A program made the position numbers and the translations under genes. Of a stretch of DNA of 35,720 bases, positions 3,417-35,720 are shown piece by piece. The stretch is from Candidatus Aerophobota bacterium (GTDB lineage Bacteria; Aerophobota; Aerophobia; Aerophobales; JAGGVN01), in NCBI GenBank assembly GCA_021158005.1, contig JAGGVN010000025.1, positions 1 to 35,720 on the forward strand, given 5' to 3'. The notes beneath the pieces were generated by a model. The model saw nothing but the letters and a program-made list of their open reading frames with translations, searched no databases and had not been told where the DNA came from. The number at the start of each line of letters is the position of its first letter. Positions within the stretch are counted from its first letter, which is position 1.

Positions 3417-3419
3417 GGA

Positions 3420-4115: not shown

Positions 4116-4127
4116 AGGGAAAAGTAA

Positions 4128-8042: not shown

Positions 8043-8092
8043 TCGTTTGTATGTACCAATGTTAAAGACAGGGGCAAACTTTAATAAAAAAA

Positions 8093-17530: not shown

Positions 17531-17616
17531 TTTATATGATTGCAAGAAATCGCTTTCTTGTTTTCTTCAGGGATTTTTGTATATTGAAATAAGATTTGGC
17601 ACGAGGAAGGATTAAT

Positions 17617-18176
17617 ATGAAAATTTTCATTGATACCGCAAAGTTAGAGGAGATTGAAGAGGCTTGTAGCTGGGGAATAGTGGATGAGTAACTATTAATC
17701 CTTCTCTGATTAAAAGAGCAGTGGATACTTTGAGGAAAAATAATAAACTTATAGAGATGGAGGAATATATTGGTAAAATATGCAAGACAGCAGGAGAAGG
17801 AAAACCTGTTAGCCTGGAGGTGATCAGCTTAACTTCTGAAGAAATGGTTAAGGAAGCGAGGGCTTTCTATTCTAAATTTAATCCCATTGCTCAGAATGTA
17901 GTAATAAAAATCCCTATTAATATATATATGGAAGGGAAGACGATTACAAATTACGAAGGCTTAAAGGCTATAAGTCAATTGAGCAAGGAGGGAATTTCGG
18001 TAAATGTAACTTTGGTGATGAATCCAGGACAGGCACTTTTGGCGGCGAAAACAGGAGCTCGTTATGTAAGTCCTTTTTCAGGGAGAGTAGACGATTATAT
18101 AAGGAAGAACTTAGGAATTAATTTTGAAAATGAAAATCCCTGTTTTCTTTCGACTTTACTGAAAAAAGTAGTATAA
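17617..18176 (+). pseudogene. Transaldolase-like (FSA/TalC family) pseudogene: N-terminal frameshift plus C-terminal truncation
   Basis: Frame 1: MKIFIDTAKLEEIEEACSWGIVDE*. The next frame resumes with VTINPSLIKRAVDTLRKNNK...NVTLVMNPGQALLAAKTGARYVSPFSGRVDDY. One missing base restores VDGVTINPSLI. The usual C-terminal 60-70 residues are absent. Confidence 0.8.
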
Positions 18177-18390
18177 TTATCCCTTAAAGCCTTTACTTTC
18201 CAAAAAAGATAATTGAAGTAAATATGCAGCACAAGCCTTGAAGGGAAAATGCTCTTCATTCTCTTCCTCAATGATCTTGACAGTCTAAAAACTAAAAAAG
18301 CCAATTTGTGATATTTTTTCAAAGAACAAAGAATTTGTCGAAATCAGTGTTAAAAGATATTTTAAGTTGTTTAGAGATTTCTATTAATAT

Positions 18391-19347
18391 TTATCCAAAT
18401 GCTTTCATTATCCAGTAAATTAAGGAAATCCAAGGAGCAGTAATAAAAGTAGTAAAAACCCAACAAGAATTGGTCAAATCTTTATTCAGCTTAAATAAAC
18501 TTGAGAGAATCAATGAAGATATAGCTACAGGCATCGCTGATTCAATAAAAATTACCTTTAAAGATAAAGTATCAAGAATGTTCATCCGCACAAACAAATA
18601 AGCCAGACTCAACCCAATGATTGGATTAATTATAAATTTTAAAAAGGAAATACTCAGACATTCATTGAAATATTTTTTAATTTTTGCAAATTTTATAGTT
18701 AAACCTATGGAAAACATATAAAGAAAAGTAGTCAGGGGAATCAATATATTGTTGAGTAAAGTAAAAAATTGGGGACGAGCTATATTTGAGAAATTAAGTA
18801 TTAATCCTACGATTAAGGCAACATTAGGAACTATACTCAAGGGATCGTTAAAGAAACTCTTGAGATTTTTTATCCAACTTCGCTCTCCACTTTTAGCATA
18901 AAATCTGGCTATATAAAATCCTACAGTATAAAAAAGGGGGCTAGAATATATACTATAAAATATGGCCAGACCAAGACCTTGTTCTCCAAATAAGAGAAAA
19001 CATATAAATCCTCCTAAACTTAGGCCGATATTTGAAAACATACAACAGGAAAGATATGCTCCCTTATCTTTGAAATTATGGTTATGAAAATCTGAAAAAA
19101 TTTTACCCACTAAATATAATAATATAGAAAGAACGAGCCCCACCAAAGGTAAGGTTAATATATGAATATTCGGAATTCTTACTACCCAGAAAGCCAGGCA
19201 AATGATTATTGGTTGACCAAAAAGAATAACTGTTTTTATAATAGGGTTGCTTAATTTCTCAGCGAGATAGCCTTTTCTTTTGACAATATAACCTCCTATT
19301 AGAGCAACCCAAATGAGTAAAAAAGGAAAGATAAATTTTGAATACAT
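18391..19347 (-). CDS. AEC (auxin efflux carrier) family transporter
   Basis: Ten-TM-like pattern; MYSKFIFPFLLIWVALIGGYIVKRKGYL and C-terminal SAMPVAISSLILSSLFKLNKDLTNSCWVFTTFITAPWISLIYW. Confidence 0.85.
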   Translation of the reverse strand: MYSKFIFPFLLIWVALIGGYIVKRKGYLAEKLSNPIIKTVILFGQPIIICLAFWVVRIPNIHILTLPLVGLVLSILLYLVGKIFSDFHNHNFKDKGAYLSCCMFSNIGLSLGGFICFLLFGEQGLGLAIFYSIYSSPLFYTVGFYIARFYAKSGERSWIKNLKSFFNDPLSIVPNVALIVGLILNFSNIARPQFFTLLNNILIPLTTFLYMFSIGLTIKFAKIKKYFNECLSISFLKFIINPIIGLSLAYLFVRMNILDTLSLKVIFIESAMPVAISSLILSSLFKLNKDLTNSCWVFTTFITAPWISLIYWIMKAFG

Positions 19348-19368: not shown

Positions 19369-19476
19369 TTAAGCTATAGAGCTAATAGCTGTAAGGAGGT
19401 TCATATCCTCAGCATTTAATGAAGTATCGAAGTGGCTATTACATCCTATAATAAAATTGGGTATCTTTGTCATCAT
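19369..19476 (-). pseudogene. 35-aa translationally coupled ORF, probably the 5' stub of a truncated gene
   Basis: MMTKIPNFIIGCNSHFDTSLNAEDMNLLTAISSIA*. Its ATG overlaps the stop of the upstream gene (ATGA). Confidence 0.35.
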
Positions 19477-20648
19477 TTTTTCCTTTGAACTCTAATAGTA
19501 TTCTCGTAAGATAAGTCAAAACAAAGATAAATCCTTTTATTTTTCAAAAACCAACTATCTTTCTTTAAAGTTTCTCCTTTATTTAGCTCGTTTAATAATT
19601 CTCCATCCTTAGTTATAGAGATATTTTTATTATTCTCTTCTGCAGTAAGGCTAATAGTAAACTCTGGACAAATAAAAGGAGATTTAAACTCAAGGGATTG
19701 AGTTTCCCCGTTTTCTCTTATATTTACTTCAAAACTATTTTGGGTAGCAAAATATCGGGATATTTCGCTGACCTTCATCCACCTTATTTTATCACCATAT
19801 ACATTCCTTAATCTTCTGGTGACTTCGTAAAGTATTTTAAATTCTAACTTTTCTTCTCGTATCATCCGCCACCAGTGGTGATGAAAAACAAGACAACTTC
19901 CACACTGATAAAGAGTAGCTAAACGCCCCTTTTCCCCATCCTCCGAAATATACTGGTCAGTATATTTAGCAAACTCCTCTTCTTCCTCATCTTTTATATA
20001 ATCACCGTATCCGCTAATAATACTAACTACCGCCTCTTTTTTAGTTTTATTTAGATAACTAACTTTTGGATTAATAACAGGAGAATCTTTATCTACATGG
20101 AGAAAATACCAGGTTAAAGAAATGTTGTTGATTTTTTTCTCTGCTTCCAGCACAGCTCTTGCATAAGAATCCTCTACTTCAGAACCAAAATGGCTGGGAG
20201 AGGTAACTCCGTTAGCTTCTAATCCCACATTTTTTAGAATATTTAACCCATAGGCGATATAAGCAGTCAAAGCTTCTTTATTTTGAGTTTGAGACCATTC
20301 CTCTTCCGAAATGCAAGGATAGTGATATAATCCTGTTTTAAGATCCACAATTTGATTATGAGTAAGGATTTCAGGAGAGATGTCAAAATAAGGAGCAATA
20401 TTTTCTCGAATAAGAGAAACAGTTTTTTGTAACACAGGAAGCTGTTTCCCCGCTAAGGCTTCATCTAAAGCTACGGGAGATGGATAGGGCATTAAGGTAA
20501 ATTTCCCCTTAATTTTAGTTTCAGATACTAATTTAGAAAATTCTTCTACAAATTCTAAGTAGTTTTTTTCTCCAGGAGAAGAATCATCCAGAATAAGGCA
20601 AACCGGAGTTTTTAGCCCGGGCATCTCTGTTTTTATACTTAAACTCAT
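19473..20648 (-). CDS. Polysaccharide deacetylase (CE4)-like protein of unknown specificity
   Basis: TPVCLILDDSSPGEKNYLEFV (DD near N-terminus), EILTHNQIVD, GLEANGVTSPSHFG and CLVFHHHWW suggest a NodB-type barrel. No signal peptide. Confidence 0.45.
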   Translation of the reverse strand: MSLSIKTEMPGLKTPVCLILDDSSPGEKNYLEFVEEFSKLVSETKIKGKFTLMPYPSPVALDEALAGKQLPVLQKTVSLIRENIAPYFDISPEILTHNQIVDLKTGLYHYPCISEEEWSQTQNKEALTAYIAYGLNILKNVGLEANGVTSPSHFGSEVEDSYARAVLEAEKKINNISLTWYFLHVDKDSPVINPKVSYLNKTKKEAVVSIISGYGDYIKDEEEEEFAKYTDQYISEDGEKGRLATLYQCGSCLVFHHHWWRMIREEKLEFKILYEVTRRLRNVYGDKIRWMKVSEISRYFATQNSFEVNIRENGETQSLEFKSPFICPEFTISLTAEENNKNISITKDGELLNELNKGETLKKDSWFLKNKRIYLCFDLSYENTIRVQRKK

Positions 20649-20668
20649 TTTATTTCCCTTCTCTAATG

Positions 20669-22795
20669 TTAGATTATAGTTTTAAATATCTTTGTTCCCA
20701 TTCCTTTGAAGGAAATTTCAAAGATAGTTTTTTCATCTTTTCTTAATAAAGGGATTTCTTCTTTCTTTTCCAGATCATAAAGACCAGATAATGACTCTTC
20801 TAAACTTATTTGGCATTTTTTCTCTTCTTTTAAGTGATTGGATACAAAAAGAATACCTTCTTTTTCTGCTGTTAGAAGAGTTGCTGTGACTTTATCATCA
20901 TTAATTAAAATTTTTCTACTTATACCAATTTTTTCCACTAAAGAAATTACAAAATTTTTAACAGTTATTGTTTCAGGTTCAGGTAAATTCCCACTTTGAA
21001 CTCTTGGTGGAGTACAACTTAACCCCAGATTTACTCCTGAAAGAATAGCTTTACCCTTCCCATAGGAATTTATAATAATAGCCGGATCACCATTAAAGTA
21101 ACTTGCTAAAACTTGTCCTCTTATCTTAGTAAATCTTTCTACAAAATGCGTTTTTAAAAGTTTCACTGTACCCAAGTTCCCAAATTGTACTACAGGCTTC
21201 TCAGTTGAATTGATCTCTCTTTCTTGACATCCAAATAATTCTGTAAGTCCTTCTCCAGGAATAATTCGTGACATTCTCTGGCGATGGTCAAAGAGATCTA
21301 TTGCAGGATCAGTTAATACCGTGCCCCCATTCTTTACATACTCAAACAAAAGTTTATTAAAAGAAGAAGCAAGGCATATAGGAAAGGGTAAAATTAATAG
21401 TTTATATTCTTTAAGTTTAGCTAAACTTACAAATTCCTCATGAAGAATATCTACTGGAATATTGGCTTCCCAGAAAATACGATAATAACCAGTAAAACTA
21501 TCCATAGAGAGGTTTACATTATGTTGAGCACACCAATTTACCATATAAGATAGAGGACTCATTAAGATAGCTACTTCAGGTTCTGGATATTTTACTTTTC
21601 TAAACAGATCAGCATTTTCATTAAGGATATTACAGATTTTAGAAGCAGTTTTAGCCATTATTAAAGGTTTACCATCATTATCGCAGAGTCCCATATTCCC
21701 GGATTCATCTCCATGCCTTTCATTGCGAAATTGCCAGTAAAGAACTCCTTTAGCTCCGTGTTCAATTGAGGCCCATGTCCATAAAGAAAATTCTTCTGGC
21801 GAAGGAAGTTTTTCTAAATTAAGTCCTCCACCACCTCGCCCTCCTCTGAGCTCTGATTGCCAGAACTCTTTTCCGCAGGCTTGATTTCTTACGGCATCGG
21901 CTTCTAAAGCCATAATTGTTGCGCCCTCACCAATAGACGGAAATCGACTCACCCCCCATTTATCCACTACCCTGGCTAATTTCCAATCATCATAAGCTTT
22001 AGTAACAAAATCGCAGCAGCACATAGCTTCATAAGTATGAGCCATAACAGGTTGAGGAGCTACTGATTTTATAACTTCTGTTCTCCATTTAACTATATTA
22101 ACTGTTCTTTCTATAAGAAACCTTCGCCAATCAATCCATTGAGTATAACCTCTTTGATAAGTAGGAGGTCTAACATCTTCCCATGCAGAATGAGATCTTC
22201 CCCAGGCTTCATTGAGAGCATTTAAAGTCCCATACTTTTTCTTTAGCCATTCTGTAAATTTAGCCCGGGTAGCAGAGCAATAACAATACATTTTATTGCT
22301 ATATCGCTGAGGGTCAAGAATAGGTTCATTCATTGGCTCCCAATAACTAATCTCTGGACGATCTTTAAGGTGTTCCAATACTTTTCGCATAAAGTTTTCT
22401 GCGATTTCTCTAACTATATTATGGTCAAAACATAAACCTGGCCATCCACCCGTAGGAATACTGGAGGCGGCATTAGGTTCAGCGGGAATACCCTCATTAT
22501 CTACATAACGACAATTTGGATACTTACGAGTAGCCCATTCGGGACATCCATAAAGATTAAAGAGAAGGATAGCCTTTAAGTTATATTTACCCATAGTATC
22601 AAGGAAAGTATCTATATAATTAAAGTTTATTTCTCCTTGTTTTGGTTCTAAATATCCCCAGCAAATCCATGCCCGCATAGTATTAAAACCAAGTGATTTT
22701 GCTAATTTTAAATCTTTATCCCAATCTTCCGGTTCAGGAGTTGCTCCCCGTAGATATTGAGCTCCGAACGGGAATATAGACCTCTCATTTAACAT
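20669..22795 (-). CDS. Beta-galactosidase-like glycoside hydrolase (GH42 type)
   Basis: FPFGAQYLRGATPEPEDWDKDLKLAKSLGFNTMRAWICWGYLEPKQGEINF, putative acid/base ISYWEPMNEP, putative nucleophile region FWQSELRGGRGG, and a beta-galactosidase trimerisation-like domain. No signal peptide. Confidence 0.8.
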   Translation of the reverse strand: MLNERSIFPFGAQYLRGATPEPEDWDKDLKLAKSLGFNTMRAWICWGYLEPKQGEINFNYIDTFLDTMGKYNLKAILLFNLYGCPEWATRKYPNCRYVDNEGIPAEPNAASSIPTGGWPGLCFDHNIVREIAENFMRKVLEHLKDRPEISYWEPMNEPILDPQRYSNKMYCYCSATRAKFTEWLKKKYGTLNALNEAWGRSHSAWEDVRPPTYQRGYTQWIDWRRFLIERTVNIVKWRTEVIKSVAPQPVMAHTYEAMCCCDFVTKAYDDWKLARVVDKWGVSRFPSIGEGATIMALEADAVRNQACGKEFWQSELRGGRGGGGLNLEKLPSPEEFSLWTWASIEHGAKGVLYWQFRNERHGDESGNMGLCDNDGKPLIMAKTASKICNILNENADLFRKVKYPEPEVAILMSPLSYMVNWCAQHNVNLSMDSFTGYYRIFWEANIPVDILHEEFVSLAKLKEYKLLILPFPICLASSFNKLLFEYVKNGGTVLTDPAIDLFDHRQRMSRIIPGEGLTELFGCQEREINSTEKPVVQFGNLGTVKLLKTHFVERFTKIRGQVLASYFNGDPAIIINSYGKGKAILSGVNLGLSCTPPRVQSGNLPEPETITVKNFVISLVEKIGISRKILINDDKVTATLLTAEKEGILFVSNHLKEEKKCQISLEESLSGLYDLEKKEEIPLLRKDEKTIFEISFKGMGTKIFKTII

Positions 22796-22883
22796 TATTT
22801 TTTCTCCTTCTGCAAAATAATAGATGAATCCCTTATTGCTTTATCCTCATTATCATAATTTTAATAAATGTTCAGCATTTTCC

Positions 22884-23858
22884 TTAAAATCTTACTCCCA
22901 GTTTAATACTTTTTTCTGGATGATATTCAATATACTCTTTGTAAGCTTCGGCAGATTCTGAAAAGGGAACTACAGGCTGAATAATTTCTTCGCACTGAAG
23001 TTTTCCTTCAGATAACAGCTTCCAACAAGTATCCTTTATACGCGCAAAATCCCATCGGGGATAATCCCGATTAGGCTCACTACAAGCTCGAGCAAAAATA
23101 ATATTGGGAACTTTAAAATGAGCAACTTCACCAAGATCAAGTCCTCCCTTACATTCCTTTGCCCAACCCACATAGGCAACATTCCCTCCGTAAGCAAGTC
23201 CTTTAAGAGCTTGATTTAATGCTTTATAATTTCCACTCGTTTCAATAACTACATCTACTCCTGTTCCTCCAGTTGTCTTTTTTAGCTCACTACCTACATC
23301 TTGAGATGTAGGGTCAAGCACCATATCAACTCCTGATTTCAAAGCTACCTCTCGGCGAATTTTAATAGGATCAATTGCAGCAACAAAGATAGCTCCAGCC
23401 ATTCGGGCCATTTGAACCGCCATTTGTCCAATTGCCCCCAATCCAAAGATTGCTACTTTATCTCCTAAACGGATATGTCCATCCCGAATGCCAGCAAGGG
23501 CAAATTGTGCGGGATCAAAGCATACTGCTTCTTTCCAACTCATTCTTTTGTTCATTTTAAGTATGTTTTTAGCAGGCCAGGTATGAGTTTCTCGTAAATG
23601 TCCATAACCAGCTACTCGCTCACCAAGAGAAAAACCTTCAACCCCTTTACCAATTTCAGTTACTCTTCCGGTACACATATTACCCAGTCCCATGGGGAAT
23701 TTTGCTCCTCTATTCCCATGATACAAAGTTAATTCTGTACCGTGTTTTGGTGAACCAAATTCTACTTTGACTCGGATATATCCTTCAGGAAGAGGCTCTT
23801 CTTTATATTCCCGAATTACTGGTTTACCTCGCTCTAAAGCAACTAATTCTTTTGGCAC
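22884..23858 (-). CDS. Medium-chain dehydrogenase/reductase (zinc-binding dehydrogenase superfamily)
   Basis: GDKVAIFGLGAIGQMAVQMARMAGA Rossmann motif, SPKHGTELTLYHG N-terminal domain and GGTGVDVVIETSG. Confidence 0.87.
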   Translation of the reverse strand: MPKELVALERGKPVIREYKEEPLPEGYIRVKVEFGSPKHGTELTLYHGNRGAKFPMGLGNMCTGRVTEIGKGVEGFSLGERVAGYGHLRETHTWPAKNILKMNKRMSWKEAVCFDPAQFALAGIRDGHIRLGDKVAIFGLGAIGQMAVQMARMAGAIFVAAIDPIKIRREVALKSGVDMVLDPTSQDVGSELKKTTGGTGVDVVIETSGNYKALNQALKGLAYGGNVAYVGWAKECKGGLDLGEVAHFKVPNIIFARACSEPNRDYPRWDFARIKDTCWKLLSEGKLQCEEIIQPVVPFSESAEAYKEYIEYHPEKSIKLGVRF

Positions 23859-23870
23859 TTTATCCTCCTT

Positions 23871-24635
23871 TTATTGCCCAAAATTTTTTAATGTTTCTCG
23901 AATAGATTCCATCGAGGGCATAGTGGCCCTATATTCTAAACCTACATATCCCTGGTAACCAATTTCATCAAGTTTTTTAATAATATTAGCATAATTAATT
24001 TCTCCGCTGCCTGGTTCATATCGTCCTGGCACACTCGCTGCATGAATATGACCGATAAGCTCAATATTCTCACTAATAGTCTCTATTAAGTTACCTTCCA
24101 TAATCTGCATATGATAGATATCATAAAGAAGTTTGACATTAGGACTATTAATCTCTTTAAGAATAGAGAATCCCTCTTTAGCCGAGTCAAGTAAATAACC
24201 AGGATGATCTTTTAGAGTATTCAAAGCTTCTATTACTAAAGTTACCTTTTCTCTTTCCGCTATTTTAGAAGCTTCTTTCATCCCCTCGATTAAATCCTGA
24301 ATTTGTTTCTCGTAAGGAATATTCTTATCCCTTCCACCAGCCATAATCATAAGAGTAGAACAATTAAGCTGGTGAGCAACTTTTATTGCCTCCTCTAATG
24401 ATTTCAGGGCAGATTCCCTTTGCTCTTTTTTTACCAAAGCTCCATGGTCTGAGCCAATAAAAGTTACTACTTCAAGTCTATTTTTTTCAGCTTTTTCTCT
24501 TATTGCAGAAATATCTCTTCTTTCCCAACTGAGAAATTCGAAACCAGGTAGGCCTAACTCACCAACTTTCTCAATTCTCTCAAGAAAGGGATACTCTTTT
24601 AATAATGCCTCTATACTTACAGAAATCTTCGCCAT
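23871..24635 (-). CDS. TIM-barrel sugar phosphate isomerase/epimerase, hydroxypyruvate isomerase-like
   Basis: VTLVIEALN, KLLYDIYHMQIMEGNLIETI, IGHIHAASVPGRYEPGSGEINY and YVGLEYRA match the Hyi-like AP-endonuclease-2 fold family. Confidence 0.85.
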   Translation of the reverse strand: MAKISVSIEALLKEYPFLERIEKVGELGLPGFEFLSWERRDISAIREKAEKNRLEVVTFIGSDHGALVKKEQRESALKSLEEAIKVAHQLNCSTLMIMAGGRDKNIPYEKQIQDLIEGMKEASKIAEREKVTLVIEALNTLKDHPGYLLDSAKEGFSILKEINSPNVKLLYDIYHMQIMEGNLIETISENIELIGHIHAASVPGRYEPGSGEINYANIIKKLDEIGYQGYVGLEYRATMPSMESIRETLKNFGQ

Positions 24636-24714
24636 TCTTAGCCTCCATATTTACTTTTAAATATTTTTGCAAATTTTAATTTTTAAGTCAATACTAAATT
24701 TTCCCGCTGGTTAA

Positions 24715-25989
24715 TTAATGGTAATTTAATACTTCATCAAGATGTGAAAATACTTTATGGAATGCCTCAACATACTGCTCTATTAAATCTAATCCATTGG
24801 GGGGTTGTAGTGACCAAATCACCGCGAAATCGTCCATAAAATCCATAAGTACAGGAAAATCCTCTTCTCTATATTCTATCTTTCTCGCATAAGGACAACT
24901 CCAGGGGCATCCCTTCCCATACCCTTGCCGCAGTTTAAATAAATTAGTAGAAAAGATTGGTCGTCCTGCCCATTGACCAATATCGACTCCTTCAGCAATT
25001 AAAGCCCTTTGAACTCTTTCCCGAAAAATACGAGGAGATATATCAATTCCCAAAACTTTAGGATCGAAACGAATGATATAAAGATAGTAAACATGGGTCT
25101 GATTTTCGGGAACATATGGGGGAATAACTCCTCTGATTTTGGAAAGTTCTTTAGTGAGGTATTCGCAATTTCTCTGACGAAGAGCATTTTCCTCATCCAA
25201 TCGTTTAAGGCGATTACGAGCAATAGCCGCTAAGAGTTCATCGGAGCGATACATCCATCCAAGTTCATAGGCATTATAAGTTCGTTTCTTTCCTGGTTTG
25301 ATAATTTCACCGAACCTCGCTAACATTTCTGCCTTTAAACAAAAATCTTCATTGTTGGTAACCAACAATCCACCATCGGCACCGGTAGTTAGATTCTTGG
25401 ACCATTGAAGACTAAAAGCTGCCATATCACTTAATGAGCCCACTTTTTTTCCTTTATAGGTTGCTCCATGTGCCTGACAAGCATCTTCAATGACTAAAAG
25501 ATGATGTCTTTTAGCAATAGCATTAATTTTATCTATATCGCAGGAAAGTCCAGCAATATCTACAGGGAGAATAGCTTTAGTTTTTTCTGAGATTTTCTCT
25601 TCTATACGATCAGGATCAAGATTATAAGTTTTAGAATCTATATCCGCAAAAACAGGAATACCATTTTGATATAATATAGAGGTGGTAGAAGTAAGAAAAG
25701 AAAAAGGCGTAGTGATTACTTCATCTCCGGGGCCAATTTCTGCGGCAGCTATAGCTGCATGAAGAGCAGCTGTGCCACTATTGAGCACAATGCAATATTT
25801 TGTTCCTATATAGTCTTTCCATTCTTTTGCTAGTGCGGTAATTTGAGGCGAGCCGGGGCTCCCCATAAGTTTACCATCTTTTAATACATCTATTGCTATT
25901 TGAATATCTTCTTTTGTAAGAATAGGGTAACTGTATTTTTTTACATTGACTGCAGGGCTTCCTCCCTTGATTGCTAATTTTTCTCTCAT
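24715..25989 (-). CDS. DegT/DnrJ/EryC1/StrS family aminotransferase (copy 1)
   Basis: LNSGTAALHAAIAAAEIGPGDEVITTPFSFLTSTTSIL, VIEDACQAHGATYKGKKVG, and PLP-lysine motif FSLQWSKNLTTGADGGLLVTNN. Confidence 0.93.
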   Translation of the reverse strand: MREKLAIKGGSPAVNVKKYSYPILTKEDIQIAIDVLKDGKLMGSPGSPQITALAKEWKDYIGTKYCIVLNSGTAALHAAIAAAEIGPGDEVITTPFSFLTSTTSILYQNGIPVFADIDSKTYNLDPDRIEEKISEKTKAILPVDIAGLSCDIDKINAIAKRHHLLVIEDACQAHGATYKGKKVGSLSDMAAFSLQWSKNLTTGADGGLLVTNNEDFCLKAEMLARFGEIIKPGKKRTYNAYELGWMYRSDELLAAIARNRLKRLDEENALRQRNCEYLTKELSKIRGVIPPYVPENQTHVYYLYIIRFDPKVLGIDISPRIFRERVQRALIAEGVDIGQWAGRPIFSTNLFKLRQGYGKGCPWSCPYARKIEYREEDFPVLMDFMDDFAVIWSLQPPNGLDLIEQYVEAFHKVFSHLDEVLNYH

Positions 25990-26045
25990 TTATCAAATCC
26001 TCCTATAAGCTGTTCTACTATTTGTTATTCCCACTTTTCAGGGGA

Positions 26046-26281
26046 TGGACCCCCTAGTTGGACAGTATTTTGTCATATTTAAGATCCACTTTACCACTTT
26101 GTTCTTTCTCGGCAGAGTATACCTCAGCAGGTGTTCTATAACCCAGTGACTGATACGGCCCTTCCCAGTTGTAAAAGCTCATATATCCACTAATTTCCTC
26201 TTTAGCATCTCTCTCATTCTTCTGGACCCCCTTCTTTCATTTTACACGATCTTAACCCACTGTCCAAAATTTTGGGGTCCA
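26046..26281 (-). mobile_element. Internally deleted IS3-type element (MITE-like remnant)
   Basis: Ends are related inverted repeats: TGGACCCCCTAGTTGGACAGT and, inverted, TGGACCCCAAAATTTTGGACAGTGGG. Minus-strand 26054-26215 encodes an OrfB-type C-terminus: ERDAKEEISGYMSFYNWEGPYQSLGYRTPAEVYSAEKEQSGKVDLKYDKILSN*. Confidence 0.8.
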
Positions 26282-26334
26282 CTGCAATATTTTATCTTTA
26301 TTGATTATTATCTTTTCTTTATAAATTGATATTC

Positions 26335-27633
26335 CTAACTATTCAGAAGCTCATCAATATTTTCCGCTACTTTCTTAAAAGCACTAGCATGTTCCTCGAT
26401 GATTTTCGGTCGGTAATGTTTAAACCAGGGGATACTATAAACATAAGCAGACATAGACTCTGTTACAGGTAAACTTCCTTTACCTTGACGGACATCACGA
26501 TCTGTATTGGCAATAACTGTAGGCTTACCGTGATGATAAATATCAGCTTTATGAAAAAGGGGATGTAGATGAAGAGGAAAAGTTGTCCCTGGGGTAGTTA
26601 TCACTCCTTCTGCTCTCACTGCTTCGCAAAATTTTTCTACCGGGAGATTCCCCAATTCCTCAGGGACATAAAGCCCCTTAGGATTAAACCAACCACCCAT
26701 AGTACTTTTAGAGCCTTTAGGAGGTCGATGAGCTCTTAAACCTTTAGTGCCTTCTAATAAATCCCAGAAATAATTCATTGCCTTTTGAATCTCTTCAAGA
26801 CGTTCTTTATAACACTTTAATTGAACTCGGCCAACAGCAGAAGAAAGTTGGTGCATGCGATATTTAAATCCACCAAGAGGGAGACCAGCAAATTCTTTTA
26901 ACTGCGGATCAGTTATAATTTCTCCTTCTATTTCAGCATATCGAGTTTCGCCAGTGCGCTCATAGTGGCCAAAAGCTACGCAGCGCTCATAAATTTCTCT
27001 ATCATTGGTAACTAAGATACCTGCTTCGCCAGTAGCTAATGGTTTTCCACTCATTACACTGAAACAACCTACATCACCGATAGTTCCTACTAATTTTCCC
27101 TTATATAAACCACCATGAGCATGACTGGCATCTTCAATTACTTTGATATTATGTTTTTTAGCAATTTGCATAATAGAATCCATATCACAAGGATATCCAT
27201 GATGATGGACAGCTACAATAGCTTTAGTATGTTCTGTAATACGGTGTTCAATATCTTTTGGGTCAATGCATAAGGTATTTGGTTCAACATCAGCAAAAAT
27301 AACAGTAGCACCCAGGTTAAGAGCCGGTAGAACAGAAGCCCAGTAAGTCAAACTGGGACCAATAATTTCATCTCCAATACCAACTCCGCAAGCCCACATA
27401 GCGCTATGAAGACTGGCTGTCCCCGTATTAAATCCCAGGGCATATTTCATATTATGCCATTCAGCGTATTCTTTTTCAAACTTCATAGTTACATCTGTTC
27501 CCGACATCTTGCCTGCTCGTAATACTTCTAAAGCAGCATCTTCAGCTTCTTTAGTAATGATTGGCCACTTAAATATATCGCCCGGATCAGACTGAACAGC
27601 TTTAGGACCACCGTTAATGGCTAATTTAGACAT
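26335..27633 (-). CDS. DegT/DnrJ/EryC1/StrS family aminotransferase (copy 2)
   Basis: MSKLAINGGPKAVQSDPG, FNTGTASLHSAMWACGVGIGDEIIGPSLTYWAS, VIEDASHAHGG, and PLP-lysine motif FSVMSGKPLATGEAGILVTND. Confidence 0.93.
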   Translation of the reverse strand: MSKLAINGGPKAVQSDPGDIFKWPIITKEAEDAALEVLRAGKMSGTDVTMKFEKEYAEWHNMKYALGFNTGTASLHSAMWACGVGIGDEIIGPSLTYWASVLPALNLGATVIFADVEPNTLCIDPKDIEHRITEHTKAIVAVHHHGYPCDMDSIMQIAKKHNIKVIEDASHAHGGLYKGKLVGTIGDVGCFSVMSGKPLATGEAGILVTNDREIYERCVAFGHYERTGETRYAEIEGEIITDPQLKEFAGLPLGGFKYRMHQLSSAVGRVQLKCYKERLEEIQKAMNYFWDLLEGTKGLRAHRPPKGSKSTMGGWFNPKGLYVPEELGNLPVEKFCEAVRAEGVITTPGTTFPLHLHPLFHKADIYHHGKPTVIANTDRDVRQGKGSLPVTESMSAYVYSIPWFKHYRPKIIEEHASAFKKVAENIDELLNS

Positions 27634-27700
27634 TCTTTATTCCTCCTTAATAAATATTATCTTCTTCTTTAGATTTTTTCTTACAAATTCTACAATTTTA

Positions 27701-29680
27701 TTAGCTTTCTGGATACTCTGGGTATTTGTTCTTTAAAATATCAATTTTCTCCCTGAACTCTTCTATACTCTTCGCATTTAATAAGACTACCCGGGTCGTT
27801 CTTTCTTCCCCAACTGACCAATTATTAGGATAATCAAAGATTAAATATCCCAACTGATACCCACTCATATTTCCTAAGTCATTAGAATCGTGAATTCTTA
27901 ATCTCAAAGCCTCCATATGTTGAATAACCATTCCAAATCCATGCTCAGTAATATAAACCCAATGTGGATTCTCCATAACTGCTACATCTGCAGGTTTATG
28001 TATTGAATAATGTCTTCTTTGTTGGTGGGGGATTATTACTTTGTGTTCTGCGCCATCATTAAAATAGATACTAATATCAAAGGGAATACGAAAACAATGT
28101 TTATCCATTATATATTCAGTCTTAATGTTGGAGGTAGCTATCAACTTTCTTTTTAAAATAACATAGTCTTCGTAAAAACTATAAAGATTTTCAACTTTTA
28201 TGGGAGCTTTATTTTCTCCATCAGGAGTAGTTGGATAGGCTATATACTTAACTTTTTTACCATTTAATTTAGAATCCTTCTCACTAATAATTTCCTGGGT
28301 AGCTTTAGTATCAGACATCGTTCCATAAAGAATATTATTAATAGAAACTAAAGTAGTTTGTCCTGTCTCAATAGGAGAATCAGTCATCATTCTCTCTGTT
28401 TTAGGAGAATACCAGGCATAATTTCCTCCTTTAATAAGAGTGCCCTGAGCTTCATAAATATGATATCTAAAGTGCCCGGTTATCTCATCAATAATTGCCC
28501 CCGGACCTGTGACTTGAATATAATAGTTTTTTCCTCGAGCTACAGATGTTCCATTAAGGGCATAAAATTGTGACTTTGGTTTTATTTGAGGTTCATACCA
28601 ACTCTCTAAAACTTCTGCTAGAGAACCCATGGTTGTAGCTGTAGCTGTAGTTCTATTGCACTGGTAAGTTTCTCTACAGGGAGAATTAAACATCTTATCC
28701 GGCATAGAACCGTCATCTTGCTGAATAACTCTCAAACAACGGATAATATCTTTAGACATCCAGGCTCTGTAAGGATTATTATGATTATATGCACTCTTCA
28801 TTAATAGCCTGGATAGCTCAAAAGGAACACTGGAATGGATCCATCTATGGCGTTTGGTGCAGCGAAAGTTATTTTTCCATCCGGGAACATAATAAGACTC
28901 TACGGCCGTATCGCCAAAATCTATTTTCTTCTTTTCTTCCCTTCTAATATCTTTACCACATAATTTAAGAATATACCAGGCACGATGAAGGTAATTTTTG
29001 GTCCCGATATCATAATGTAGATCCAAATCACACCGAGCCCAATCATCATATGATTTCGCCTTATTCGGGCTACTATAACGAACTGTCCCATCTCCTATAG
29101 CCCATCCATAAGCAGGATCAAAAAATTTACTAATCTTATCGTTGATCTTTTCTACCGCAGGTAAACTTCGGTCAAAATAATAAAGAATAGCCCAGGAAAG
29201 TGCAGTTATCGCTAAATGCTGAAAGTTAGCGCTGGAATCTAAATGAGTTCCGTAGTAATCTTTCTCCTGGATAGTCTCAGTAGCTAATTTCACAGCCATA
29301 TCTTGATATGTTTTTATTTTTTTCACTGGCAATACTTCCTTCAAATAGTGAGATACTACCCATAAGGCATAATCCATATCTAAACCACCTAATTCTATAG
29401 AATGGATTAAAAAATCTGCATCTTTAATTATTCTTTCAAGATAAATTTTCTCTTTAGTAATATTCCATAATCCCACATTACCCACAATGACTTTTGTAGT
29501 TACTCCTAATCCACCTGCGCCTTCTTCAGGTATCCGATAACCTCCCTGTATTAGATTGTTAGATGTTAACCAGTTACTCATCTTCCTCATTGCCTCAATA
29601 ATAAAGTCTTTAGTAATAGGTTTTTTATCTTTTTCTGAAATAATTATCTGATCGCATTTCGCAACAAATGGTTCCTTCAT
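27701..29680 (-). CDS. Uncharacterised 659-aa protein, probably an alpha/alpha-toroid carbohydrate-active enzyme
   Basis: Helical, Trp/Tyr/His-rich N-terminal half and beta-rich C-terminal half, embedded in a sugar-utilisation operon. No signal peptide. Fold assignment is inferred. Confidence 0.5.
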   Translation of the reverse strand: MKEPFVAKCDQIIISEKDKKPITKDFIIEAMRKMSNWLTSNNLIQGGYRIPEEGAGGLGVTTKVIVGNVGLWNITKEKIYLERIIKDADFLIHSIELGGLDMDYALWVVSHYLKEVLPVKKIKTYQDMAVKLATETIQEKDYYGTHLDSSANFQHLAITALSWAILYYFDRSLPAVEKINDKISKFFDPAYGWAIGDGTVRYSSPNKAKSYDDWARCDLDLHYDIGTKNYLHRAWYILKLCGKDIRREEKKKIDFGDTAVESYYVPGWKNNFRCTKRHRWIHSSVPFELSRLLMKSAYNHNNPYRAWMSKDIIRCLRVIQQDDGSMPDKMFNSPCRETYQCNRTTATATTMGSLAEVLESWYEPQIKPKSQFYALNGTSVARGKNYYIQVTGPGAIIDEITGHFRYHIYEAQGTLIKGGNYAWYSPKTERMMTDSPIETGQTTLVSINNILYGTMSDTKATQEIISEKDSKLNGKKVKYIAYPTTPDGENKAPIKVENLYSFYEDYVILKRKLIATSNIKTEYIMDKHCFRIPFDISIYFNDGAEHKVIIPHQQRRHYSIHKPADVAVMENPHWVYITEHGFGMVIQHMEALRLRIHDSNDLGNMSGYQLGYLIFDYPNNWSVGEERTTRVVLLNAKSIEEFREKIDILKNKYPEYPES

Positions 29681-29740
29681 TTTTTCCCCTCCCTCTTGGT
29701 AAATTTTTTTATAACTTTTTAAACACCATTTTCTAAATCT

Positions 29741-30532
29741 CTAAGATTTTGGAAAAAATTGTCTAAGATACTTTAATTCATGTTTAGCCGCCTCCCAGGG
29801 ATTTCCTCCAAACCATTCTACAGATATGTAGCGATTATATCCACTTTTTTTAAGGGCCTCAAGAAATATAGGATACTCCATATCACCATCTTCAAAATAA
29901 GCAATTTGATTTTCTTGAGGTTTACGAATCATATTTTTAGCATGAACATGCATAATATAAGGGAATAATCTATTAAGTGCCTCCACAGGATCAGCTTTTC
30001 CTTCATTAAATAGGTGCCAGATATCTAAAAGAACTTTTAAATTAGGAGAATTTACCCTCTGAACAAGTTTTAATGTACTTTCAACAGTATCCATTAATTG
30101 ATGGGGATGAGTCTCAAGGACAAAAGTAATTTTTTTTCTGTGAGCGACTCCACAAATTTCCTTAAGTGAAGAGACACACTGTTCCCACTGCTTTTTGGTA
30201 GCCTCTTTTGCTCCTACTTTTCCTGTAAAAACCCGGATTAAAGGACAGTCTAATGCCTCTGCATACTCAATGAATCTTAAAGCATTCTCAACGCTTCTTT
30301 CCCTTTCCTCCTCACTACCAGTAAAGTTAAAGTGAGGAGCAATAATAGGAACTTTTAGTTCATAAGAATAAATAAGTCTTTTAAGAGAATTTAATTCTTT
30401 CCCTCTTTTTAAATAATCTTCTATATGGTCAATAACTATTTCAATACCGTCATAACCAAGATGGCTCACTTTACGGACTACATCTTCTATTTTCTCATCA
30501 GTGTATTTAATAGAACATAAACTAATTTTCAT
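29741..30532 (-). CDS. TIM-barrel sugar phosphate isomerase/epimerase (IolE/AP-endonuclease-2-like)
   Basis: LGYDGIEIVIDHIEDYL, FVLETHPHQLMDTVESTLKL, KVLLDIWHLFNEG, YIMHVHAKN and YISVEWFGG. Confidence 0.85.
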   Translation of the reverse strand: MKISLCSIKYTDEKIEDVVRKVSHLGYDGIEIVIDHIEDYLKRGKELNSLKRLIYSYELKVPIIAPHFNFTGSEEERERSVENALRFIEYAEALDCPLIRVFTGKVGAKEATKKQWEQCVSSLKEICGVAHRKKITFVLETHPHQLMDTVESTLKLVQRVNSPNLKVLLDIWHLFNEGKADPVEALNRLFPYIMHVHAKNMIRKPQENQIAYFEDGDMEYPIFLEALKKSGYNRYISVEWFGGNPWEAAKHELKYLRQFFPKS

Positions 30533-30660
30533 CTTTTAACAGCCTGCCTTTCAAAAAATTAATGTAAATCTTTTCCATTCTTGATAAACATTCTCCAAAA
30601 TACTCAAAATTAGAAACTTGCTTTCTTTCTCACTATTTAAGAATTTAATCCAGAATCCCA

Positions 30661-30695
30661 TTAAAAATTTGGGAGGATTTTTAGATAATCCTCCC
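30661..30695 (-). terminator. Rho-independent terminator of the ABC transporter operon
   Basis: Perfect 9-bp stem GGGAGGATT / AATCCTCCC (30671-30679, 30687-30695) followed on the minus strand by AAATTTTTAA. Located just past the second permease gene. Confidence 0.75.
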
Positions 30696-30778
30696 TGTAA
30701 ATTTTACTTACACAAACTTCTTATAAAAAGTATTCTCTGCTATACAAAAGGGAATTCAAAAATTATTAAACAAATTAC

Positions 30779-31786
30779 CTACTTAAACCCTCTTAACTTT
30801 ATGCCCTTCATTAGTTCTTCGCGAAGGATAATGAACATAATGAAGACAGGAATTGATTCAATAATTGCCAGCATCATTACCCCATTCATCCCAAAACCTG
30901 CCTGTAAAATCTCGCGCCAATTCTCATCAGTAAGAGCTGTCTCCCTAGATAAAGTACTTACTACTCGTTCAACTTTATACATTAATACATTTATAGGGAA
31001 TTTAGTCTCATCTCTGAGAACAGTAATGGGCCAGAGGAAGGAATTCCACGCCCCAGTAAATGCAAAGTAAATTACCACTGCAAAAGTAGGTCTGGATAGA
31101 GGAAGAATTACCCGTCTAAAAATAGTTAATTCAGAAGCCCCGTCTAATCGAGCGGCATTTATAATTTCATCAGGAATAGTATCAAAGAATCCTTTAAACA
31201 AAAGAACACTAAAAGCACTATAAGCAGAAGGAATAATTACTGCCCAGAAAGTATCTAAAAAATTTATGGAGGGAAAAGGAGTAGAAGTAAAAGGAATCTT
31301 AGGAACTCGATTGGTAGGAAAAGGAAAATGTCTTATAATTAAATAATTAGGAATAAGAGATATTGAGATAGGAATCATCATCGTTCCGATGAAATAAAGG
31401 AATAGTATCCTACTGGACCTTGGGCTGGTCAATTTAGAGAGAGCATAGGCAACTAAAGCAGTAATTGGTACTTGTATAATAACTGTTCCTCCGCTTATTA
31501 TAAAGCTATTCTTTATATATACCCATATTGGGCAAAGAAATCCTAATCTCCCTCTTCCTCCTTTAAATAACCAGAAAATTAGTTTATAAGAAGCAAAAGT
31601 AGGATTACGAGGCCATAATGTAGGAGGAAACTGATATACTTCAGTATAGGGCTTTATTGAGGTGGTAAACATCCACCACACAGGAAAAAGATGGATAATG
31701 ACCCCTATCCACAAAAAAATAGTAATCAGAATAAGTGTTAGTCTAACCTTAAGTTTTCTTTTGCCCACCTCAGAAATTAAAGGCAT
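30779..31786 (-). CDS. Carbohydrate ABC transporter permease (MalG-like)
   Basis: Multi-TM; EAA-loop DEIINAARLDGASELTIFRRVILPLSRPTFAVV. Confidence 0.92.
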   Translation of the reverse strand: MPLISEVGKRKLKVRLTLILITIFLWIGVIIHLFPVWWMFTTSIKPYTEVYQFPPTLWPRNPTFASYKLIFWLFKGGRGRLGFLCPIWVYIKNSFIISGGTVIIQVPITALVAYALSKLTSPRSSRILFLYFIGTMMIPISISLIPNYLIIRHFPFPTNRVPKIPFTSTPFPSINFLDTFWAVIIPSAYSAFSVLLFKGFFDTIPDEIINAARLDGASELTIFRRVILPLSRPTFAVVIYFAFTGAWNSFLWPITVLRDETKFPINVLMYKVERVVSTLSRETALTDENWREILQAGFGMNGVMMLAIIESIPVFIMFIILREELMKGIKLRGFK

Positions 31787-31831
31787 TTCTTAAAGCCTCC
31801 TTTTTCAAATTTTAGTTTTGATAATCAAATT

Positions 31832-32725
31832 CTATTTATCCAGGTCCTCTTTAAAATACTTCCTTTGTAAAAGGACGAGGATCATTATAAGGAAAAATAG
31901 TAATATTGCTAAGCTTGCCCCTCTTCCCAGATACATACTATTAAAAGCTAATTCCCATATATACATCACTACTGAACGGGTAGCATTTGCCGGGCCTCCA
32001 GCGGTCATTACCATCGGTTGATTAAATACTTGCATATTGTTAATTACTGCCAAAATTAACATCATAGCCATTATCGGCCTTATCCTAGGTAAAGTAATAG
32101 ACCATATTTTTTGCCAGAAACCAGCCCCTTCTAACTCTGCCGCTTCATAATACTCCCGAGGGATGCTCTGCAAAGTAGCAATATAAATTAAACCAGGAGC
32201 GAACATAAGTAAACCCGGCAGAATTAAGCAAAGCATAGCAAGGTGAGGATCATTAAGCCACCTTAAAGTAGGAAGACCTAAACTTACTAATATCCCATTA
32301 AATAAACCATAAAATGGATTATAAAACCATTTCCAGAGTATCAAACCAGCCATACTGGAATAGGGTATAAACCACAGAATCATCATTACCCTTATAGTGG
32401 CTTTACTCATTTCCAGGAGCATTATTGCTACAATAATGGGAATTATGAAAGTAAGAGCCAAAGATAAAACCGTATAGAATAAAGTGTTCTTAAATACTAT
32501 AGGTGTCATTGGATCGTCTAATATTATACGAAAGTTACTTAGGCCAACAAACTGGGAAGGTCCTATAACCTGAAATTTTTGAAAGGCGATTACAAATACC
32601 ACTACCAGAGGAAACCAACCGAAAATAGCCTGGATTATAAAACCTGGTGCCATAAAAAACCAACCCATTTTATACTTGGAAGCAAGGCGTTGTTTTTGTA
32701 ATTTTTCGTTTTTGTTCTTGACCAA
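31832..32725 (-). CDS. Carbohydrate ABC transporter permease (MalF-like)
   Basis: Multi-TM; EAA-loop EYYEAAELEGAGFWQKIWSITLPRIRPIMAMM. Confidence 0.92.
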   Translation of the reverse strand: MVKNKNEKLQKQRLASKYKMGWFFMAPGFIIQAIFGWFPLVVVFVIAFQKFQVIGPSQFVGLSNFRIILDDPMTPIVFKNTLFYTVLSLALTFIIPIIVAIMLLEMSKATIRVMMILWFIPYSSMAGLILWKWFYNPFYGLFNGILVSLGLPTLRWLNDPHLAMLCLILPGLLMFAPGLIYIATLQSIPREYYEAAELEGAGFWQKIWSITLPRIRPIMAMMLILAVINNMQVFNQPMVMTAGGPANATRSVVMYIWELAFNSMYLGRGASLAILLFFLIMILVLLQRKYFKEDLDK

Positions 32726-32745
32726 ATTTTTCTCCTTCTTAAACT

Positions 32746-32786
32746 GATAAAGAAGAGACGCCCGGAGCGAACGCCTCTTCTTTATC
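32746..32786 (-). other. Intercistronic stem-loop between binding protein and MalF-like permease
   Basis: GATAAAGAAGAG / CTCTTCTTTATC 12-bp perfect arms plus GCG/CGT extension. No downstream U-tract on the coding strand. Confidence 0.7.
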
Positions 32787-32807
32787 TTTATTCGTTCTTT
32801 TTCATTT

Positions 32808-34397
32808 CTACTTTAAAGCACCACTATAGTACTTTTCATCCAGTACAGAAAATACATTCTTATAGGCTTTTGGGAAATACTTTTTGTAGAAATCTCCCAG
32901 TGCTTTATAATACTTAAGGAAATTCTCTTTACCTGTTCCCTCAACCTTATAATTTAAGGCGCTCTTATTAGCTATAGCAGCTTGTTCATCTGCCACTTTT
33001 TGGATATCACACTCAGGATCCGTTACTACGCTCTGAATAGCAGCAAGAACACATTTGTCAAAGGCCAACTTATTTTCCTCTTCAAGACCGTATTCAAAAG
33101 GTGCAGGCATATAAGGAAGTTCCTTTTGAATTTTTCGCACTCGCAAGTAATCAGGTGCCAACGACGCCAGAGCTTCTTCTATAGGTTTTACGTAAGGCAC
33201 ATTCGGTACTTTATAAGGTTCGAATCCAAAGCCCCAATCAGGTTTCTCCAAAAAACCACCGTAAACTAATCGTTTTAGTAACCTTCCTATTCCTGCTTCC
33301 GAGAGAATAATCCAGTCAAAAGCTGCTTTTTGTTGTTCCTTACTTAGTGCGGGGTTGATGGCTTTAAAATCAACCTTACAAGTGTTAACTAGAACTCCAT
33401 CGGGACCAGTTGGCAGAGGAGCTATTCCTTCAATATGCAGAGTAAGCTTATCTTCACCGTATCTGTGGGGGTGTCCCCAGTTTCTCAAAGTCATATGCAT
33501 ATCACTAGCTAACCTCATGGCTACTCGACCAGCATGCATATCTTCACGAGCTGTAAATGTAGTCGCTTCTACACCGGTAAGAACACATTTATATTTAAAA
33601 GCTAAATCTTTATATAACTGTAGAGGTTTGAGTGCCTCTGGAGCATTAAAAGCTGCTTTCCAGGTGTATTTACCGCTAGGATCCGGTTTCATTAGAGGAG
33701 TGGGAATACCATAGGTCATAGCTACTAAATAATAAAGATCCCAGGCTCCTTCTCCTGCTTCTAATTCAAATCCCCACCGTTTCTTTTTAGGATCGGTGAG
33801 TTTTCGAGCAATTTGAATAAAGTCATCCCAGGTCCAATTATCCGGGGGTCCGGGTATTCCTCTCCCATCAAAAAATCCTGCCTCCTTAAAAAAGTCTTTT
33901 CTATATCCAATTACATCTGAGTGATAATTATTCGTAGGAATCGCATAACATCGCCCATCTTTCCACGCGGCTTTCGTAAGCCTTTTATCCAGAGTCTTTA
34001 CCATGGGGTCTGCTTCTACCCACTCGGTGATATCAGCACATAGTCCTTTAGCTATGGCTGTACGAATACCACCAATTTTAACTGTAGGATAGTATGCTAA
34101 AGGTTCTCCTCCGGCTATGGCTGCCAATATCTTTTGCGTTGCTCCCTCTGCCCAAATGCTATAGGAGAGACCTTCTATTTTAACTGTGGGATGCAAATAC
34201 TCAATCATTGTTCGCATTACCTCGTCAATTGGTTCATAAAAAGCTCCACTATGGATAGCTTCCTCTCGCGGCATAAGCTTATACCGTGTATCATGGAATA
34301 TCACTCTTAAGGTTCTCTTCTCTGCCGCAAGACTAACACCACCCATTGTAAGAACTATTATACTCATCAAGAAACAGCTTACAATCTTTTTCTTCAT
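32808..34397 (-). CDS. Extracellular solute-binding protein of a carbohydrate ABC importer
   Basis: Signal peptide MKKKIVSCFLMSIIVLTMGGVSLAAEK; DNWTWDDFIQIARKLTDPKKKRWGFELEAG; AFDWIILSEAG. SD AAGGAGGTAAGTA-ATG. Confidence 0.9.
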   Translation of the reverse strand: MKKKIVSCFLMSIIVLTMGGVSLAAEKRTLRVIFHDTRYKLMPREEAIHSGAFYEPIDEVMRTMIEYLHPTVKIEGLSYSIWAEGATQKILAAIAGGEPLAYYPTVKIGGIRTAIAKGLCADITEWVEADPMVKTLDKRLTKAAWKDGRCYAIPTNNYHSDVIGYRKDFFKEAGFFDGRGIPGPPDNWTWDDFIQIARKLTDPKKKRWGFELEAGEGAWDLYYLVAMTYGIPTPLMKPDPSGKYTWKAAFNAPEALKPLQLYKDLAFKYKCVLTGVEATTFTAREDMHAGRVAMRLASDMHMTLRNWGHPHRYGEDKLTLHIEGIAPLPTGPDGVLVNTCKVDFKAINPALSKEQQKAAFDWIILSEAGIGRLLKRLVYGGFLEKPDWGFGFEPYKVPNVPYVKPIEEALASLAPDYLRVRKIQKELPYMPAPFEYGLEEENKLAFDKCVLAAIQSVVTDPECDIQKVADEQAAIANKSALNYKVEGTGKENFLKYYKALGDFYKKYFPKAYKNVFSVLDEKYYSGALK

Positions 34398-34438
34398 TAC
34401 TTACCTCCTTAAAATTAATTACATCGTTCATTTCTCGG

Positions 34439-34497
34439 GGAAAGCTCCTAAAAGAGAAGTTAATTTTCCAAAACTTCTCTTTCTTGGAAAGCTTTCC
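34439..34497 (-). other. Extended hairpin in the 5' leader of the solute-binding protein gene
   Basis: Outer arms GGAAAGC (34439-34445) / GCTTTCC (34491-34497) and inner arms AAAGAGAAGTT (34451-34461) / AACTTCTCTTT (34472-34482). Confidence 0.6.
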
Positions 34498-34696
34498 TTT
34501 TTCCCCAGGATAGATTGGCCTGCCTACCTTTATCACCTCCTTTTCGGCCATTTATTCTATCTTCCCTTTTTTTCAAAAGAAAGATCTGACTTTATTTTCT
34601 AATTTATCTTCTTTGTTTGAAAAATTTACCCAGATTTCATATCTTGAAGATTAATCCTTAAATCATCCTTAATTTAGACAAGAACCAAAGACTTTT

Positions 34697-35401
34697 TCAA
34701 AAATCAGAATTTTTATCTTTCTCTTTTTCTTCCAATCTCTTGAGAACCCTATATATAGCACTCATTGTATGTTCTCGAGTTAACTTTTCAGCTAAGTCAA
34801 TATCTTTAGATTTAATAGCTTGAGCAATATCTCTATGTTCTTTTAAAGAGATCTCCCAGGATGAGGGAGCAGAAAGTCCTATTCTTTGATATCTTCTTAT
34901 AGGTAAGACGATACTTTCATATAAATTAATGAGTTTTTGATTCTTACTCATCTTTATCATTTTTCGGTGAAATTTAATATTTAATTTTTGTATTTCTTTA
35001 AAGTTATCTTCTTTTATCTTTTCTTCCATTAGGTTAAGAATAGAATCCAACTCTAAGACTTCTTTTTCTTCTGCAATAGGGATAGCGAGTCTAGTAGCGA
35101 AACTTTCCATCATACTCTTCATCTGATAAATTTCCTTAACTTCTCTGATGGATAATTTGGTGACATAGACCCCCTTTCGGGGAACTAGGAGAACCAGACC
35201 TTCACTGGCTAAAGTGCGGAAAGCTTCTCTTATGGGAGGGCGAGAAATATTTAGTGCCTGGGAAAGCCTGAATTCATTTATTTTTTCACCTGGTTTTAAA
35301 TTTTCTGAGATAATATTTTCCCGCAAAATCTCGGCAACTTTTGTGCTCATCAGCTTTGATTCTAATAAATCAGGCTTTATTTTTAATTGAGTAATATCCA
35401 T
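34697..35401 (-). CDS. GntR family transcriptional regulator, FadR/FCD subfamily
   Basis: wHTH: LKPGEKINEFRLSQALNISRPPIREAFRTLASEGLVLLVPRKGVYV; FCD-type helical C-terminus with FHRKMIKMSKNQKL and EHRDIAQAIKSKD. Confidence 0.93.
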   Translation of the reverse strand: MDITQLKIKPDLLESKLMSTKVAEILRENIISENLKPGEKINEFRLSQALNISRPPIREAFRTLASEGLVLLVPRKGVYVTKLSIREVKEIYQMKSMMESFATRLAIPIAEEKEVLELDSILNLMEEKIKEDNFKEIQKLNIKFHRKMIKMSKNQKLINLYESIVLPIRRYQRIGLSAPSSWEISLKEHRDIAQAIKSKDIDLAEKLTREHTMSAIYRVLKRLEEKEKDKNSDF

Positions 35402-35481: not shown

Positions 35482-35720
35482 GAGCTCACGGTAAATTACA
35501 GAAAAATTGAAAGTTAATGTTGATTTGGGGAATCCTGGGGGAAATACATTAAAAAAAGAGATTTTTTTTAATAAGAAAACGGACGGGAGGGGAAAATTTA
35601 AAAGGATTCACCTTTTATTGGCAATCTAAGAGGTAAAAATAATAAAAAAGCAAATATCCTCTCATGTCCAAAATTTTGATGCCTCACCCCTTGTGGGTAG
35701 GGAGGGTGTTACTCCGGTGG

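Follow-up and report, generated by a model that had tools for sequence, protein, structure and literature searches.

The twelve minus-strand genes at 19473-35401 of the window, running from a GntR-FCD regulator through a CE4-like protein, most likely carry out 3-keto-glycoside chemistry. This is the best-supported function of the island as judged from its sequence, because the MDR dehydrogenase is a YcjQ homologue and the importer, MDR and TIM barrel parallel those of E. coli ycjN-R, whose gene order is found again at a locus in another genome of the same order (L088). Around this chemistry we tentatively place a sugar-uptake and catabolic cluster to which two DegT enzymes have been added, deaminating a free amino sugar, and we put this fuller reading a little short of an even chance. 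The window is the whole 35,720-nucleotide stretch analysed and makes up an entire contig (C60) of a Candidatus Aerophobota genome (G000; 1.77 Mb in 165 contigs). The comparison sample included 16 other genomes of the same order, beyond which the next nearest are related at domain level only. The features of the island and its immediate surroundings are as follows.

34697..35401, minus strand: GntR-FCD transcriptional regulator, first island gene (Pfam GntR and FCD above cut-off)
32808..34397, minus strand: family-1 sugar SBP, 529 aa, with signal peptide (SBP_bac_1, 59 bits)
31832..32725, minus strand: MalF-type permease (BPD_transp_1; 29% to E. coli YcjO)
30779..31786, minus strand: MalG-type permease (BPD_transp_1; 27% to E. 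coli YcjP)
29741..30532, minus strand: xylose-isomerase-like TIM barrel, IolO/epimerase-like (AP_endonuc_2, 157 bits; metal motifs E-D-H-E present)
27701..29680, minus strand: 659-aa orphan, ORF659 (no relative in Pfam, NCBIfam, plasmids, viral contigs or about 780 other genomes)
26335..27633, minus strand: DegT1, PLP aminotransferase-like, K197 (DegT_DnrJ_EryC1, 265 bits; best PDB match 2c7t)
25990..26334, minus strand: intergenic gap with a transposase C-terminal remnant (sequence and translation; rve_3 E=0.0034)
24715..25989, minus strand: DegT2, PLP aminotransferase-like, K198 (DegT_DnrJ_EryC1, 289 bits; best PDB match 8gyh)
23871..24635, minus strand: Hyi/YcjR-like TIM-barrel isomerase (AP_endonuc_2, 157 bits; 30% to E. 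coli Hyi, 26% to YcjR)
22884..23858, minus strand: YcjQ-type MDR, predicted glycoside 3-dehydrogenase (45.6% identity over the full length to E. coli YcjQ, 311 bits)
20669..22795, minus strand: GH42-like glycoside hydrolase, catalytic E157 and E315 (Glyco_hydro_42, 185 bits; alignment to GH42 structures)
19473..20648, minus strand: CE4-like protein with a putative polysaccharide deacetylase fold (conserved residues; AF2 model and Foldseek)
18391..19347, minus strand: AEC-family (Mem_trans) carrier (Mem_trans, 45 bits; 125 bp downstream of the island)

The genes listed in the original prediction are all present in this interval on one strand, and most of them are backed by Pfam. Matches above cut-off comprise GntR with FCD, SBP_bac_1, two BPD_transp_1, two AP_endonuc_2, two DegT_DnrJ_EryC1, ADH_zinc_N and Glyco_hydro_42. 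Against NCBIfam equivalogs, the island enzymes score far under the curated cut-offs, and therefore no precise function could be assigned by that route. The genes are mostly tightly spaced with good ribosome-binding sites; longer gaps are found before the SBP (299 bp), before the first TIM barrel (246 bp) and between DegT1 and DegT2 (345 bp). This last gap contains a decayed transposase C-terminus, YNWEGPYQSLGYRTPAEVY, whose rve_3 match is below cut-off. A copy of the motif CCAAAATTTTGGACA from this gap, differing by one mismatch, lies upstream of the GntR gene, at 35665-35679. The two sites suggest insertion-sequence remains in the gap and upstream of GntR. The transposase remnant makes a single operon doubtful, so that the island may consist of two transcription units, and it would also weaken the assumption of a single pathway. 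The AEC carrier gene is possibly the end of the cluster. As noted originally, no sugar kinase is seen within the window, and neither is a functional aldolase: a transaldolase/FSA (fructose-6-phosphate-aldolase)-like sequence on the plus strand, at about 17616-18179, is a pseudogene with a frameshift near its start and a truncated end. The window contains no tRNA, and no RNA family reaches the gathering threshold.

The MDR provides the closest functional comparison. YcjQ is annotated as a D-guloside 3-dehydrogenase and belongs to the E. coli ycjMNOPQRSTU cluster, in which YcjR is a 3-dehydro-D-guloside 4-epimerase and YcjS a D-glucoside 3-dehydrogenase. The enzyme roles of this system are also given in PMC11543891. 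The genes ycjN-ycjO-ycjP-ycjQ-ycjR encode an SBP, two permeases, the MDR and a TIM-barrel epimerase, and the island likewise has an SBP-MalF-MalG importer, a YcjQ-family MDR (46%) and a TIM-barrel isomerase. By analogy, the uptake and 3-oxidation steps of the island would resemble those of the ycj system. However, no match was found inside the island for YcjS, for the YcjT/YcjM phosphorylases or for the YcjU mutase, and since these counterparts are missing we do not class the island as a member of the ycj system. It also differs in containing two DegTs, the GH42-like and CE4-like proteins and the orphan, and in having a TIM barrel beside the MDR that resembles E. coli Hyi (130 bits) more than YcjR (78 bits). 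The identity of this barrel as Hyi proper was set aside, its TIGR03234 score of 184 bits being far below the 353 bits required. A Gfo/Idh gene at 643-1671, with 24% identity to YcjS, is about 18 kb from the island. Among related loci, L088 has the order SBP-MalF-MalG-MDR-TIM, as in ycjN-R; L085 has a YcjR-like TIM barrel (31%, 145 bits) after its MDR, and the MDR of L083 (genome G331) adjoins a double GH127-type protein. The original prediction had named an amino or keto substrate, and its keto part gains support from the YcjQ family membership of the MDR and from the parallel of importer, MDR and TIM barrel with ycjN-R.

The SBP matches sugar SBPs in the PDB only distantly, and its match to the E. 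coli ycj SBP is short and weak. Judged by eye, it is the only island protein with a signal peptide, in line with the earlier remark that the catabolic proteins have none. The importer lacks an ATPase gene in the island; three MalK-type ATPases are encoded in trans elsewhere in the genome.

In the GH42-like protein, both catalytic glutamates (E157 and E315) align with those of GH42 structures. However, the NW following the nucleophile and the H of EKxH, which are conserved in the aligned structures, are replaced. Galactoside specificity is therefore unsupported, as expected from the earlier view that the substrate is not a plain galactoside. The CE4-like protein conserves D21-D22, H97 and H258 across four homologues. 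Its DUF2334 match is sub-threshold, no Pfam family is matched above cut-off, and the sequence lacks a clear HxxxH motif. In Foldseek its AF2 model (pTM 0.79) matches the polysaccharide deacetylases 1z7a and 4dwe and the NDST1 deacetylase, with TM of about 0.4-0.54. Glycosidase matches of the same model (fucosidases, GH66 and CGTases) were rejected at an rmsd of 12-15 Å versus about 6-7 Å for most deacetylases. On balance the CE4 label, already part of the original prediction, has moderate support from the conserved residues, the sub-threshold DUF2334 match and the modelled fold. Homologues of this protein occur in three distant genomes, one of them (L096) adjoining a gene that matches PF04734 weakly and below the cut-off. 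A paralogue fragment in its own genome (L099) is located beside GH98-like and melibiase-like genes. ORF659 is confined to its own genome in everything searched. Pfam at E=5 and NCBIfam give no match for it, the PDB at E=10 gives none that convinces, and it is absent from 385 other diverse genomes, from a few genomes of the G317 and G053 groups, from 392 genomes of the phylum of G151, and from plasmids and viral contigs. Its single-sequence AF2 model has a mean pLDDT of 32 and is unusable.

DegT1 and DegT2 share 31% identity. The PLP Schiff-base lysine (K197 and K198, respectively) and an IED motif are kept in both, and the lysine is present in every row of the two clades to which they belong. 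In a tree of 44 rows, DegT1 is placed in a 16-row clade (support 100/100) and DegT2 in a separate 5-row clade (100/99). Neither clade includes the two DegTs of this genome located beside rml/epimerase genes (L062 and L063). Relatives of DegT1 at 57-75% identity are found in distant lineages. The best NCBIfam DegT scores, against PseC, ArnB, WecE and like equivalogs, are about half of the cut-off or less. The nearest structures to DegT1 are the 2-deoxy-scyllo-inosose (DOI) aminotransferases 2c7t and 5w71 (170 bits), and these matches are the only support found for the cyclitol option of the original prediction. These enzymes share with DegT1 the DegT fold with its PLP lysine, a paired dehydrogenase and a non-nucleotide-sugar substrate, and they differ in that the similarity is moderate, the context of the island looks catabolic and a DOI synthase is missing. 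DegT2 matches the DegT/DnrJ/EryC1/StrS aminotransferase 8gyh over its full length (304 bits); the gene context of DegT2 is unlike that of 8gyh. It is noted that the genome has nine DegT matches. Those on contigs C90 and C161 are beside nucleotide-sugar genes, and on C94, C66, C147, C71 and C34 the neighbours are GH38, PF04734, Gfo/Idh or URO-D-like genes.

The established role of DegT enzymes is the synthesis of amino sugars and aminocyclitols. The conserved clades described here, in contrast, appear from their neighbours to occupy breakdown-type gene clusters across distant lineages. A catabolic-type neighbour is found within 7 kb in 17 of the 20 contexts of the DegT1 and DegT2 clades (15/18 without the window) versus 1/12 controls, and a Rml/epimerase/NeuA-like neighbour in 0/20 versus 4/12, although these counts are suggestive only, since the catabolic markers were taken from DegT1 neighbourhoods and are circular, the window rows match themselves and the biosynthetic marker set is small. 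The relatives adjoin amidohydrolase-2, Gfo/Idh, AP_endonuc_2, PF04734 (ceramidase-like) and URO-D-like proteins. Deacetylases nearby are NagA-like (L039 and L047) or of the CE4 type (L020), and the glycosidases near DegT relatives include GH32 (L040), GH38 (L059) and GHL6/GH42M-like (L045) proteins as well as GH3-like proteins recognized by eye (L020 and L050). Glutamate dehydrogenase forms a tight operon with a DegT in L038 and L042, and two strong-scoring genes for this enzyme are present in trans in the island's own genome. A third DegT clade, DegT3, directly adjoins DegT1 in L038, L041, L042 and L043. This DegT1-DegT3 module occurs in four different bacterial families, with an amidohydrolase-2 in three of the four loci, glutamate dehydrogenase in two and an M55 D-aminopeptidase in two. 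In L048, from the same order, a GntR gene, an SBP and both permeases accompany DegT3-type and DegT1-type genes separated by one gene. The pairing of a DegT with a YcjQ-type MDR was found in no other locus examined. In L049 (genome G070), two DegTs at 6360-7718 and 7795-9153 have an apparent twin-arginine signal (NLTRRQFLGTA) and are beside a DegT1-clade gene; export of these PLP aminotransferases would argue against nucleotide-sugar substrates. Neither the tree nor the gene context assigns the island DegTs to a surface-glycan pathway, the finding that had been named in advance as contrary to the original prediction. The amino part of the predicted substrate is plausible rather than established: the retained PLP lysines, the separation of the pair from the genome's biosynthetic DegTs, and relatives beside deacylases and glutamate dehydrogenase speak in its favor.

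We propose that the SBP binds a glycoside or oligosaccharide, which MalF and MalG would import with power from a MalK-type ATPase whose gene lies outside the island. Cytoplasmic trimming of the imported glycoside would fall to the GH42-like enzyme, perhaps together with ORF659, and the CE4-like protein may take off an acyl group. The YcjQ-type MDR would act on the sugar by oxidation or reduction at its 3-hydroxyl, and the keto-sugar would be epimerized or isomerized by the TIM-barrel proteins. DegT1 and DegT2 could then use PLP to interconvert amine and ketone on the sugar in its free, non-nucleotide form, with amino sugar to keto sugar as the likeliest direction. The nitrogen would pass to glutamate and be released by a glutamate dehydrogenase encoded elsewhere. 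The steps may follow in about this order and belong to one shared pathway. YcjQ-type enzymes have a C3 ketone as product or substrate, and from this we infer that a 3-amino-3-deoxy sugar would be the most economical substrate of the pathway.

The assumption of a shared pathway has to be weighed against a composite origin, in which GntR-SBP-MalF-MalG-TIM-ORF659-DegT1 and DegT2-Hyi-MDR-GH42-CE4 serve different substrates and the two DegTs came to lie side by side by chance, when the DNA was rearranged around an insertion sequence. The DegT1-DegT2 gap with its transposase remnant, the similar motif upstream of GntR, and the different clades and usual partners of the two DegTs speak for such an origin. 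We nevertheless regard it as unlikely, for the genes are co-oriented and closely spaced, five other loci also pair a DegT1-type gene with another DegT, and L048 has its own GntR-importer-DegT-DegT cluster. The direction of the DegT reactions raises another alternative. Since the glutamate dehydrogenase and DegT reactions are both reversible, gene context leaves the direction unfixed, and keto sugars made by the MDR could be aminated, the resulting amino sugar or aminocyclitol going into a glycan or secondary product. The characterized DegT relatives in the PDB are all biosynthetic by name, glutamate dehydrogenase could provide the glutamate, and the combination of MDR and DegT follows the dehydrogenase-plus-aminotransferase logic of 2-deoxystreptamine synthesis (PMC8304502). 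However, the cluster has an importer, a GntR regulator, and glycoside hydrolase and CE4-like genes, the genome's surface-glycan DegTs are located elsewhere, and no glycosyltransferase, nucleotidyltransferase or rml-type gene is present within the island; we give amination a rather low probability.

A related possibility is that an aminocyclitol (inosamine, streptamine-like) or a glycoside of such a compound is broken down, with the DegTs taking off the amino group to yield an inosose and IolM/IolO-like enzymes processing the keto-cyclitol. The best PDB matches of DegT1 point in this direction, and the MDR and TIM barrels belong to the same superfamilies as the Thermotoga-type IolM and IolO of the NCBIfam models, with sub-cutoff similarity to both. 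That a bacterial aminotransferase can accept free scyllo-inosose with glutamate is shown by MosB (PMC6668481), in a paper that deals with rhizopine biosynthesis and signalling. All NCBIfam scores of the island are far below cut-off, however, the MDR is much nearer to YcjQ, a glycoside enzyme, and no iol-type dehydratase or hydrolase set is present, making this reading quite improbable. An ordinary galactoside operon with the DegTs as mere bystanders would be consistent with the two catalytic glutamates of the GH42 domain, but it is very improbable given the distant GH42 similarity with its lost NW and EKxH positions, the lack of Leloir genes in the island and the presence of a YcjQ-type MDR.

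Deamination of a free amino sugar, our preferred role for the DegT pair, can be extended beyond this island. It is possible, if rather doubtful, that a catabolic branch of the DegT family, widespread but so far unrecognized, removes the amino group from non-nucleotide, free amino sugars in a large number of poorly sampled bacterial lineages, coupled here to 3-keto-glycoside dehydrogenases and isomerases and elsewhere to amidohydrolases, NagA-like deacetylases and glutamate dehydrogenase, and acting on amino sugars that carry their nitrogen at a position other than C2. In the limited literature searched, no paper was found that describes a DegT enzyme in sugar breakdown or in the breakdown of kanosamine or inosamine. 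If the DegTs run in reverse, this would account for the recycling of rare surface-glycan amino sugars by such microbes, and many genes annotated as biosynthetic 'DegT' would need renaming. Owing to the YcjQ link, the function of the island can be tested with 3-keto glycosides and a small number of purified enzymes.

Two further clusters on the plus strand of the window should be mentioned. Consecutive genes at 2328-5450 encode an inositol-phosphate synthase, an inositol-phosphate cytidylyltransferase-like protein and a CDP-alcohol transferase, and resemble those for di-myo-inositol-phosphate or inositol-lipid synthesis, with all scores under the NCBIfam cut-offs. At 9447-15697, a MoxR-type AAA ATPase, a DUF58 protein, a BatA-like protein and a VWA/GATase1-like protein are encoded consecutively and form a typical MoxR-VWA cluster.
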